This document shows, in pieces, positions 26,450 through 48,121 of a DNA stretch of 64,000 bases; the stretch's first letter is position 1, and the number at the start of each line of letters is the position of its first letter. The notes beneath the pieces were generated by a model. That model was not told where the DNA came from, did no database searches, and saw only the letters and a program-made list of their open reading frames with translations. The translations under genes and the position numbers were made by a program. Origin of the DNA: Hyphomicrobium sp. (GTDB taxonomy: Bacteria; Pseudomonadota; Alphaproteobacteria; Rhizobiales; Hyphomicrobiaceae); assembly GCF_019753045.1 (NCBI RefSeq), contig NZ_JAIELN010000012.1, forward strand, positions 124,001 to 188,000, given 5' to 3'.

Positions 26450-29400
26450 ATGGACATCAAGTTTCTGATCGACAGGCTGGCGGAGCACACCCAGCCGATT
26501 GGCATCGCAGTTTTCTTGACGTGCAGCCTCATCCTTCTGCTTCGCACACGGGTTGCGAGGCGCCTCCGAGCCGTCATCGAAGACACCGTTTTCACCAATT
26601 GGCGGCTCGCTCTGCTCGGTACGACCGGCATCGTCCTGTCGGGCGCCGCGGGCTGGCGAACCTGGGAAGGAATGTACAATTTCACCGGCGAGCCCCTGCT
26701 CTCCGGCATGGTGACGTTCGGCATTCAAGGCATCATGCTGATCGTCGCCTGGCTGATCGGCGAAAGCTTTGCGACGGGAATGAACTCGCGGGCGCGCCCG
26801 GGCCAATCCTCGCTCGTCAGCTCGGCGGCGCAGCCGTGGATCGGCTCATTCATCGGCTTCCTCCTCTTCGTCACGGGGTTCGTTCTCTTCCTGCAATGGT
26901 CGGGACAGAGCGGCACGAAACATCCGGGTGTCGAAGACATCAACTGGTCCGCCGCCAGCGACAAGTTCCTGATGTTCGCTGCGGGACTGCTCCTTTTCGC
27001 GCTTTTCGCGCTTTATGCGGCCAGCGATCTGGTGCGGCCCTACGTGCAGGTGATCCGCGTCATCATCCGGAATTCGATGCTCTGGGTGATGTTCCTGGCC
27101 TGCATGGCGACGAGCGTCTTCTTCTCGTTCGACAGCTTCTTCACCTCTATCTTCCCGCAGTCGGAGCGTGTGCGCGCCGCCGAACTTCGCGCGCAGAACC
27201 AGGTTGCCGGAATCATCACCGACATCGAGCAGGCCATCGCCGCCCGTCGCGCGGTCCTGGCGGAAGAGCTTTTCACGACGGATGCGTGGAAGAGCTATGA
27301 GCAGCAGCTCGAACACGTCGCAAAAGCCGCGGCCCAGTCGCAGGGCGTGATCGAGCGCTTCGTCAACGATCAGATCGAAGAGCACCGGCGCTCGGTGAAA
27401 GAGCAGCAGGAGCGGATATCGTCGGCACAGGCAGGCCAAGCAGGGTTGGCCAATCGCAAGACGTCGCTGACGGATGAGAAGTCGAATCTTGCCGGGCAGC
27501 GGCCAGAGCTTGCAGCCGATTACGCGGCCAAGAAGGCCGAGTACGACGCCAAGCTGCGCGATGTCGACGCCAAGCGCGTCGAGGCGCTTGCCGAGGACAA
27601 GGGAGTCGAAGGAAGCGGCAAGGCGGGCCGCGGGCCGCTTTATCGTGAGCGTATGGGCGAGCTGACGCAGCTTCAGGCCGCCGCTCAGATCGCGCAGGAG
27701 CGGATGAAGGACGCGCAGAAGCGTCTGGCCGCCGTCGAGTCCCGGCTTTCGGCAGTCGATCGCGAGCTCGCGACGCTCGACGGCGATCTCGCGAAGTACA
27801 AAGGCGAAGCGGAGACCGCTGAGCAGCGCATCAAGCTTGCCGAGGGCAGCGCGCAGACCGACACTGGCCCGAAAACCGATCCTGCGCGTATTCTTCCCCT
27901 CTTCGATCAGACGAAGGCGGAATTCCGCGCCGACCCGACGGTCGAGCATCTGGGCCAGATCCAGCGGATGTGCGGCGAGATCACCGGCGCCATGCAGGCG
28001 ACGCCTGAGACCCGCGCGCTCGTTTCGACGGTCGATTGCGATCCGAAGTCGACGGCTGACGCGGCGGCAACGCTGTTCGCACTGCAGGCAGGCACGAAGG
28101 TATTCGAGAATTCCTGCGCCGGTGGCGACAAACTCAATGCCAACAAATCGACCGACGATCTCTTCTCATTCGCGCGCGGTTGCCTTGCCGATAGCGCGCT
28201 TCCAAGCTCGGACACGGACGCGCTGCGGACGAAGATCAACCACATCGAGCTTTCACGCGATGACAAGGCGCACCGCTTCGTCGTGACGCTCAACGCGTTC
28301 CAGGACGGAAACCGGCTCGCGTATCTGGCGCTCGCCATTGCGATCGGCCTCGACGGGTTGATCTTCATGTCGGGCCTGTTCGGCGCCAATGCCGTGCGCT
28401 CACCGCTGTCGGATATTCCGAGCTTCAGAGCGCGGTCCGGCGCTCAGCTCGAGGCGACAATCAATGCCGCGCTCGGAGCGCATCCTTATGAGACAGCGTG
28501 GCTGACGCTGACGTCGCTCAAACCCATCACCAACCAGGACGGGTTTTCGGCACTTGCTGATTTGAGCAACATGGAGCGATCGCAAGCCGATCGCATCCGC
28601 ATGGTGCTGACGGCCGGCGCCGATATCGGCGCGGTCGAAAACGTCAGTCTAAATCCGGAGCGCTACCGCGTTCGGAGCGAACTGCGCGAATATCTTTCGT
28701 CGGTCTGCGATAAGCAGTTCAAAGCCGATTCCAGCGCCAAGGACCGGGCTAAACTCGAGCAGCTCGTGTCAGCCGCGCTTGCACCACATCCGCGTGAGCA
28801 TTCCGAAATCGTACTCAACACGCTGGAGCCGATCCGGGAGACCGAAGGCTTCACATCGCGCGTGACGCTGAAAGAGATCGACAACGATTACGATACGCGT
28901 GTCGTGCGTCGTGTGATCAATGCCGGCGCCGCCACGAAAGCCGTGGCGCCGGACCGCGACACCGACGATCTCTATTACATTCGACCGGCGCTCTACGAGA
29001 CGCTTCTCACGATCCGCGCAACAGCTCCCGAGAGCACCGGCTACGGGCGTGATCGGGCGCGATTCGAGGGCGTGCTGGAACGTCCTGCGCTGGATGGCGG
29101 CGTGCTTCGCAGTGCGCAGCCGGAATTGCCTTTGCCTACGGGAAGCGTTCCGAAAATCGAGCGCCGGCGGGAGCAGCAGCAGGCGCTACCCGGCGTCCAG
29201 CCGCTTTCACAGGAAGAGCGTCAACGGCTCATCGCCTACTACCGCGAACAGTTGCTTGAAGCGGTGAATTTGCGATCCGACATCGTCGATACGCGCTTGA
29301 ACCTTCCGCAGTCGCGAGATGCGATTTTGGAAGCATGGAAAGCTCTCAACGCACACAGCAAAAAGAATGAGAACCTCGATTTCTTGCTGCGCGAATTTCA

Positions 29401-29797
29401 GAATGGACAGGATCGCATTCTGAGTGAAGTTTATTCCCGCCTGCGCCGGGAAGCCGGCGGCGACGCGCAAAAACTATCGCTGCTCGATGGCGTCGACGGA
29501 CGCGTGCGCGACGAGCTGACGCTTTATTTGTTGTTCCCGGAAACCGGGCTCATCAGCACTCTGATCGACGATCTCGAAGCTGCCGCGCAGCCGGACGAGG
29601 GCCTTGCCCTCGGTGAGCAGGACCTGAAGGATCAGCTCAAAAACGTTCATGAGGCCATGGGCCGGCTGGACCTCGACAATCCGCGCTCATGGGACGAGAT
29701 TCGCCAGAAGCTCGCCCTCCGGACCGGAACGGATTTCCGGAGCCTGATGAAGAGGCCGTTGGGTCAGCCTCCTCCTGAAGAAGACGGCGATGCTTGA
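26450..29797 (+). CDS. Large membrane/coiled-coil protein with internal duplication, unknown function
   Basis: 1115 residues, not assigned to a family. Six N-terminal membrane helices are predicted at about 16-32, 53-69, 85-104, 130-150, 172-193 and 208-228. A charged coiled-coil region spans 240-465, a cysteine-containing region 500-600 (Cys508, 530, 556, 578), and a seventh helix about 622-644. Two similar modules of about 85 residues follow at 667-752 and 769-856, sharing the pattern L..xxxAALxxHPxE, TLxxLxPI, EGF/DGF and VxxAGA. The C-terminal 200 residues are helical. The odd helix count places the two long soluble parts on opposite faces or makes the seventh helix re-entrant. Codon use is like neighbours. 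It is convergent with the FAH gene (2-base gap) and appears monocistronic. Confidence 0.8.
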   Translation: MDIKFLIDRLAEHTQPIGIAVFLTCSLILLLRTRVARRLRAVIEDTVFTNWRLALLGTTGIVLSGAAGWRTWEGMYNFTGEPLLSGMVTFGIQGIMLIVAWLIGESFATGMNSRARPGQSSLVSSAAQPWIGSFIGFLLFVTGFVLFLQWSGQSGTKHPGVEDINWSAASDKFLMFAAGLLLFALFALYAASDLVRPYVQVIRVIIRNSMLWVMFLACMATSVFFSFDSFFTSIFPQSERVRAAELRAQNQVAGIITDIEQAIAARRAVLAEELFTTDAWKSYEQQLEHVAKAAAQSQGVIERFVNDQIEEHRRSVKEQQERISSAQAGQAGLANRKTSLTDEKSNLAGQRPELAADYAAKKAEYDAKLRDVDAKRVEALAEDKGVEGSGKAGRGPLYRERMGELTQLQAAAQIAQERMKDAQKRLAAVESRLSAVDRELATLDGDLAKYKGEAETAEQRIKLAEGSAQTDTGPKTDPARILPLFDQTKAEFRADPTVEHLGQIQRMCGEITGAMQATPETRALVSTVDCDPKSTADAAATLFALQAGTKVFENSCAGGDKLNANKSTDDLFSFARGCLADSALPSSDTDALRTKINHIELSRDDKAHRFVVTLNAFQDGNRLAYLALAIAIGLDGLIFMSGLFGANAVRSPLSDIPSFRARSGAQLEATINAALGAHPYETAWLTLTSLKPITNQDGFSALADLSNMERSQADRIRMVLTAGADIGAVENVSLNPERYRVRSELREYLSSVCDKQFKADSSAKDRAKLEQLVSAALAPHPREHSEIVLNTLEPIRETEGFTSRVTLKEIDNDYDTRVVRRVINAGAATKAVAPDRDTDDLYYIRPALYETLLTIRATAPESTGYGRDRARFEGVLERPALDGGVLRSAQPELPLPTGSVPKIERRREQQQALPGVQPLSQEERQRLIAYYREQLLEAVNLRSDIVDTRLNLPQSRDAILEAWKALNAHSKKNENLDFLLREFQNGQDRILSEVYSRLRREAGGDAQKLSLLDGVDGRVRDELTLYLLFPETGLISTLIDDLEAAAQPDEGLALGEQDLKDQLKNVHEAMGRLDLDNPRSWDEIRQKLALRTGTDFRSLMKRPLGQPPPEEDGDA

Positions 29798-47883: not shown

Positions 47884-48121
47884 CGAAATCTCGCAAACTT
47901 GCTGGGTTGGCCTGTTATCTCATAACGACGATAAATGTTGCCTTAAGCAGATCTTGCGGCTGAACGCATAAGGTGTTGCCGTTCAGCGCACGCCGAAGCC
48001 GTGGGCTAAGTCGACGCTTGAACTCGCGAGCGTTTCTCAAGAAACTTGGACTTCGGCGCACGAGATACTGGATTATGCGCGCCGAACTCCAATTGGCGCT
48101 CCTGCAAGAGACCCCGGCCCA

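Follow-up and report, generated by a model that had tools for sequence, protein, structure and literature searches.

A core protein of the Hyphomicrobium family with duplicated modules and a predicted coiled-coil hairpin whose tip is shared with DUF4407

What kind of protein is encoded by the long open reading frame (ORF) near the middle of a 64,000-nucleotide stretch of a Hyphomicrobium sp. genome (hereafter the window; contig NZ_JAIELN010000012.1, positions 124,001 to 188,000)? The frame starts with ATG, occupies 26450..29797 (+) and encodes 1115 residues. The ratio of nonsynonymous to synonymous substitution rates (dN/dS) is 0.07 against Hyphomicrobium facile (L031; 97% identical) and 0.10 against a more distant Hyphomicrobium (L032); because these values are low, we count the ORF as a real gene under purifying selection. 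Its anatomy, read from a hydropathy scan and from AlphaFold2 models (mean predicted local distance difference test [pLDDT] 84.9 and 78.6), comprises six helices before residue 231, a hairpin, a four-cysteine domain, a seventh transmembrane helix (TM7), two modules, a linker and a C-terminal helical domain. The original prediction, made from the letters alone, knew of no family with this layout. That was nearly right: no Pfam or NCBIfam model scores above its cut-off, nothing in NCBIfam comes close, and what the prediction overlooked is a homology of the hairpin and its tip to DUF4407. Searches of PHROGs, PADLOC and PDB sequences with the window protein returned weak, mostly coiled-coil matches only—the sole PADLOC match is a coiled-coil one to LmuB (E 0.021)—and a viral structure library gave nothing useful. 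We set aside the coiled-coil matches to SMC-like ASRP, SPAM, gp26, dynein stalk, YscO, MukB and others, which any long helices would be expected to give.

The two modules behind TM7 are a true tandem duplication. Module 1 (28439..28714, +; residues 664-755) and module 2 (28745..29023, +; residues 766-858) were delimited by alignment, profile, model and structure comparison. Residues 664-752 and 766-855 align with a BLOSUM62 score of 112, compared with a best score of 58 among 5,000 shuffles of module 2, and profiles built from 38 homologues match with an hhalign probability of 99.8 (E 2e-29, 89 columns). AlphaFold2 predicts the same order of helices (H) and strands (b), H-H-b-b-H-b-b-H, in both (block pLDDT 86-96). 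The internal duplication claimed in the original prediction is thus borne out, and most of the matches it listed lie in register: AAL (673/775), HP (678/780), GF (698/800) and AGA (722/825). The exception is TLxxLxPI, which is exact in module 1 only (TLTSLKPI, with VLNTLEPI in module 2). The 28 loci sampled gave 55 module sequences, and in their tree (92 columns, many weak forks, root not fixed) a single branch separates first from second modules, with support 84/86 and presence in 86% of 200 bootstrap trees; none of 500 label shuffles gave a value as low. Because first and second modules fall on opposite sides of one branch, one old duplication explains them.

Among the 91 distinct family proteins longer than 600 residues, 85 carry two modules at the match limit applied, three carry one, two carry three and one carries none. 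A stop splits the gene of the protein without a module (L075), and a contig end truncates one of those with a single module (L067). This leaves L025 and L136 as single-module relatives, with further candidates in L138 and in a broken gene in L137; such relatives may have lost module 2 or never gained it. As to whether the module occurs in other proteins, it was seen only within the family's own proteins in the searches made; when 199 genomes of the order were searched with a two-module profile (E at most 0.001), all matches fell in core-bearing proteins, split genes excepted. Behind the modules, a disordered linker leads to the C-terminal helical domain (29210..29716, +; residues 921-1089, model residues 269-437), which is modelled at a block pLDDT of 88-95, falling to 69-82 around residues 1043-1062 and to 79 at its end. 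This domain is less conserved among homologues, and length counts beyond module 2 are blurred by rows that end at contig ends.

Where does the gene occur? Within its taxonomic family it is a core gene, present in 94 of 99 genomes and in all 25 genera (73 of the 75 better assemblies). At the order level, the module profile found it in 16 of 199 genomes (12 of 99 genera). A class-level profile search, in which at most three candidates were scored per genome, found it in 1 of 385, its own genome; the rows listed include four other genomes from the order. Among named genomes there were 190 matching stretches, 110 of them encoding a relative; the 80 that we retained are mostly Hyphomicrobium and Filomicrobium, with Methyloligella and some metagenome bins labelled otherwise. 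No relative was found in the plasmids and viral contigs searched, and the core-gene distribution is unlike that of an anti-phage defence gene. The window's own genome holds one copy, and most genomes of the family survey gave one match. Diverged second copies stand beside a closer orthologue in two genomes (G022:C443 [L027], 34% identity; G993:C1:1783032-1785761, 32%) and probably represent a paralogous branch; a third genome (G951) may carry one too. Some orthologues, mostly from metagenome bins, are split by a stop in the coiled coil or near TM7 (L023/L078, L075, L087, L137) and may reflect assembly errors or decaying genes. One relative (L106) has a long N-terminal extension that holds no Pfam domain and looks like open frame upstream of the likely start.

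The long coiled coil noted in the original prediction is present and forms an antiparallel hairpin in the model. Its outgoing arm (27341..27601, +; residues 298-384) corresponds to model helix 261-347 (block pLDDT 83-90, 72 at the end) and its returning arm (27635..27862, +; residues 396-471) to model helix 359-434 (block pLDDT 83-91, 57 at the end). Between them lies the tip, EDKGVEGSGKAGRGPLYR (27593..27646, +; residues 382-399; block pLDDT 67-72), in which E382, G385, G393 and G395 are invariant in all 39 aligned homologues. At 1.5 angstrom per residue, the arms would be about 13 and 11 nm long. The outgoing side is almost fixed in length. The segment from S229, at the end of TM6, to E382, where the tip begins, spans 154 residues in all 39 aligned homologues, whose identity to the window protein falls as low as 33%. 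Of the 89 distinct proteins measured, 87 have this length; L106 (154 in the alignment of 39) and the fragment L133 are outside that count. Across the aligned homologues, the returning arm varies from 97 to 101 residues and the span from TM3 to TM6 from 89 to 112. Between the hairpin and TM7 is a putatively periplasmic, membrane-proximal helical domain (27890..28309, +; reaching residue 620; block pLDDT 79-93 up to residue 597 and 67-75 up to residue 627), whose four cysteines (Cys508, 530, 556 and 578) are invariant in 39 of 39 homologues, as expected of an extracytosolic location.

Six N-terminal helices and a seventh ahead of the modules had been proposed. The hydropathy scan gives five strong N-terminal stretches; TM2, which it missed, is supplied by conservation and a model helix. 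TM1 (26486..26560, +; residues 13-37) comes from hydropathy, lies outside the modelled stretch and is poorly conserved among homologues. TM2 (26597..26650, +; residues 50-67), inside model helix 14-42 (residues 51-79), is strongly conserved, and W51, G74 and F78 of its region are invariant in 39 of 39 homologues. TM3 (26690..26773, +; residues 81-108), which ends AWLIGESFA and contains E105, again invariant in 39 of 39, and TM6 (27062..27142, +; residues 205-231), with the motif SVFFSFDS, are both seen by hydropathy and in the model; D228 of TM6 is kept in 35 of 39 homologues and is Ile in four. TM4 and TM5 (26828..27037, +; residues 127-153 and 167-196) come from hydropathy, vary in sequence and spacing, and have model helices with a block pLDDT of only 40-66. 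TM7 (28310..28387, +; residues 621-646), assigned by hydropathy, is the proposed seventh helix and carries a mid-membrane aspartate, D635, that none of the 39 homologues lacks. Lys plus Arg outnumber Asp plus Glu in each of the four loops placed in the cytosol (4/2, 2/0, 3/1 and 3/1), and the TM2-3 and TM4-5 loops have no such excess (1/2 each). From these loop charges and the invariant cysteines, we infer that the hairpin is periplasmic and the modules cytosolic.

How is the protein related to DUF4407 (PF14362)? The Pfam model matches the window protein on the coiled coil only, at 24 bits with a cut-off of 31.3. Among relatives it scores 28.3 (L106), 20.6 (L025) and 20.0 bits (L136) and gives no match for L108; at E up to 0.1 it matches 17 of 39 homologues (best 2.1e-7). 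The spacing of the tip equals that of clear DUF4407 proteins—EAQSGGKTGKRGIGPIYR in L139 and EAEGNALSGIAGHGTIYR in a Lak phage protein—which share the 18-residue pattern E-x2-[GS]-x4-G-x2-G-x-G-x2-Y-R; Rhodococcus DUF4407 tips keep the glycines and not the Y-R. A Gly-rich tip is present in 7 of 10 DUF4407-like proteins aligned. We built a hidden Markov model (HMM) from four DUF4407 proteins, all outside the window protein's family and two of them near copies. It scores above 15 bits, a threshold set after the scores were known, in 79 of the 91 distinct family proteins, compared with 6 of 91 after the tip was overwritten and none of 91 reversed copies (89, 5 and 0 before same-protein rows fetched with different ends were removed from the 105 rows). 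Likewise, none passes (best 9.7 bits) among 3,713 other open frames from these loci, a set that includes many non-genes. Because overwriting the tip removes most of the matches, and reversed copies and other frames give none, the tip carries most of the signal, with no coiled-coil bias. A wider HMM from 10 DUF4407-like proteins is weaker, with 5 of 105 rows above 15 bits and none of the 105 reversed copies or 3,713 controls. A stricter regular expression for the tip fits 50 of 125 family ORFs and makes 7 matches in 1.86 million other residues; since residue 390 is often Leu, we replaced it with the HMM test.

Profile-profile comparison of the core with two DUF4407 sets, run without a control, gives probabilities of 97.1 (136 columns) and 95.5 (111 columns), on the hairpin only. 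The membrane helix regions compared alone give a probability below 1, so we do not argue membership through them, nor do we claim a by-eye correspondence of acidic residues in DUF4407 helices 2-4 with TM3, TM6 and TM7; the order helix-hairpin-helix is nonetheless the same. Because the membrane helices fail to align and the Pfam score stays below its cut-off, the window protein appears to be a distant DUF4407 relative through the hairpin and not a member. DUF4407 proteins have the same succession of membrane helices, coiled coil with Gly-rich tip, last membrane helix and C-terminal part. The window protein differs in several ways: its hairpin is preceded by three additional helices, its outgoing arm is roughly double the length of that in L139, it has the four-cysteine domain, and it carries winged-helix-like modules where DUF4407 proteins have nothing or a kinase.

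The DUF4407 members that we saw come from Prevotella Lak phages, Rhodococcus plasmids and four genomes of the window's phylum. A Pkinase domain follows the last helix in two of six scanned (E 6e-24 and 2e-18), both from Rhodococcus plasmids (L149:1887-4373 and L151:1962-4376); the matches begin at profile position 71-73, with the N-lobe missing or diverged. NYN-domain genes lie close by in both plasmids. The DUF4407 frames of the Prevotella Lak megaphages and a related viral contig (L144, at 238 bits, L145 and L147) are open only when TAG is read as Gln. In the open-licence full-text papers at hand, the mentions of DUF4407 that we met are table rows only. No paper on the window protein's layout was among those listed in searches of open-licence full text.

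In structure comparison with VIA-align, module 1 matches the CRP-type regulator Bd2879 (Z 6.7; root-mean-square deviation 3.0 over 84 residues) and module 2 matches CodY (Z 6.4; 3.3 over 91 residues). By our own count, the 36 rows listed within the modules include 31 that regulate transcription or bind DNA (9 CodY, 5 CzrA), three of them presumably so. The module fold is thus probably winged-helix-like, though not secure. Each module's predicted fold resembles those of the CodY C-terminal domain, CRP/FNR and CzrA/ArsR regulators; unlike these, the modules form a tandem pair behind a membrane helix, and in the model a beta hairpin replaces the first helix of the helix-turn-helix (HTH). Sequence similarity of the window's modules to winged-helix regulators is not significant, and no curated HTH sequence model matched them at the limits used. 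Among the 38 homologues, the strongest matches of HTH type are weak ones, to the DNA-binding SpoIIID model in two (best E 0.0012), to SelB_WH in one (E 0.031) and to NCBIfam spore_III_D in one (E 0.011).

Upstream of the gene, and pointing away from it, are ABC-transporter genes and a FUR-family gene, which its neighbours mark as zur; an FAA hydrolase gene follows. In many relatives, a thiolase gene (named by eye) is directly upstream, and part of the family (L031-L110) shows the recurring order FUR-family gene (-), thiolase (+), gene (+), FAA hydrolase (-); in the window, no thiolase gene separates the FUR-family gene from the 1115-residue gene. In 80 named loci, many on truncated contigs, the neighbour clusters occur 50 (FUR), 40 (ABC permease), 39 (thiolase) and 41 (FAA hydrolase) times. 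We rejected a pathway reading of these neighbours, which share gene order only, and control by Zur, since a scan with a Zur-box consensus found no similar site between the FUR-family gene and the 1115-residue gene. A near-palindrome, TGTTATCTCATAACG, at 47913-47927 of the window, with an FMN-reductase-like gene (-) on one side and a carbon-nitrogen hydrolase gene (+) on the other, lies two mismatches from that consensus; 27 of 100 shuffles have as many matching positions.

What might such a protein do? Our best explanation, to which we give a little less than an even chance, is an inner-membrane transducer that probes the periplasm. With its N-terminus outside, the protein would pass the membrane six times and then raise an antiparallel coiled-coil hairpin of about 11-13 nm into the periplasm, its base putatively braced by disulfides. 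The conserved Gly-rich tip would contact its partner at a defined distance from the membrane, perhaps near the peptidoglycan. Engagement of the tip, or force on the hairpin, would be relayed through TM7 to the cytosol, where the two modules and the C-terminal helical domain may bind a cytosolic partner or let it go; which way the signal runs is as conjectural as the tip's partner. A periplasmic or outer hairpin with a cytosolic effector behind it is a transducer layout, and here the modules stand in the effector's place. A signal transducer had been suggested in the original prediction; that suggestion gains support, short of proof, from the periplasmic part joined through TM7 to winged-helix-like modules and from the DUF4407-kinase fusions. 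It is our best guess because two of six DUF4407 proteins carry a kinase domain. The scaffold proposed alongside it is also possible.

Several observations weigh against this reading. The relative placement of the domains is not given by AlphaFold, with low predicted template modelling scores (pTM 0.42 and 0.46). The counts of Lys plus Arg to Asp plus Glu are 3/2 just after TM6 and 3/3 before TM7, so the charge rule only mildly favours the topology. The outlying single-module relatives depart from the fixed arm length, with 152 residues in L025 and 158 in L136, and three of the 10 DUF4407-like proteins (L140, L141 and L142) lack the tip by the pattern used. For the modules, all Foldseek E-values exceed 0.2, and a Z below 8 may reflect merely a common arrangement; they are slightly acidic (Lys plus Arg 11 and Asp plus Glu 12 in module 1, 14 and 16 in module 2), and the model puts the beta hairpin at the position of the first HTH helix. 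The neighbours look like inherited gene order, with no functional partner known, and DUF4407 has no assigned function in its Pfam description.

The near-invariant arm and the presence of the gene in every genus of the family would also suit a structural spacer or tether, in which the hairpin keeps some envelope component a fixed distance away from the inner membrane and the modules anchor it to a cytosolic machine for growth or division, with no signalling; winged-helix folds often serve in docking. We regard this as possible but rather unlikely, as such a tether has no obvious need for six N-terminal helices with invariant membrane residues (E105, D635), and the kinase-bearing DUF4407 relatives point to signalling. 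The resemblance of both modules to CRP, CodY and CzrA domains, together with the SpoIIID matches, would fit a membrane-tethered transcription regulator of the ToxR/CadC kind, whose tandem winged helices bind DNA on periplasmic engagement. Against it stand the slight excess of acid over base, the first HTH helix absent from the predicted element order, the lack of an HTH model match for the window's own modules at the limits used, and the position of the modules after TM7, whereas the DNA-binding domains of ToxR-type regulators precede the transmembrane segment. Because of the charge, the beta hairpin and the missing HTH match, DNA binding by the modules is doubtful and protein-protein docking likelier, which makes such a regulator improbable.

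The membrane acids prompt a different reading, an ion- or proton-coupled channel, transporter or force generator in which the hairpin's movement is powered or gated by E105, D228 and D635. Conservation of E105 and D635 throughout, and of D228 in most homologues, speaks for it; the replacement of D228 by Ile in the remainder speaks against it, as does the finding that the window protein matches no transporter or motor family above cut-off and none in PDB sequences, and we consider it the most doubtful of the explanations. Periplasmic adaptors of the HlyD/EmrA/AcrA type also have a long antiparallel hairpin with a conserved tip; in contrast to theirs, the two arms of the window protein are part of one large chain, with a membrane segment on either side. 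No such adaptor is among the matches listed. The coiled coil of EmrA is reported to be 127 angstrom long.

Within the preferred reading of a transducer, a bolder and improbable version is that the protein is a family-specific envelope ruler, whose hairpin gauges the gap between inner membrane and peptidoglycan, or its tension, through the tip and reports through TM7 to a tandem winged-helix output. If the ruler version were true, it and the DUF4407-kinase proteins would form a broader group of transmembrane sensors that combine a hairpin tip with interchangeable cytosolic outputs, a group of which we found no description. The kinase fusions do suggest one periplasmic input device coupled to different outputs. 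The protein is apparently an unstudied, well-conserved core protein of the Hyphomicrobium family. As a large, near-universal DUF4407 relative in a culturable family, with a defined tip, a near-fixed arm and a recognisable, probable output fold, it would make the question of what DUF4407 does a testable one.

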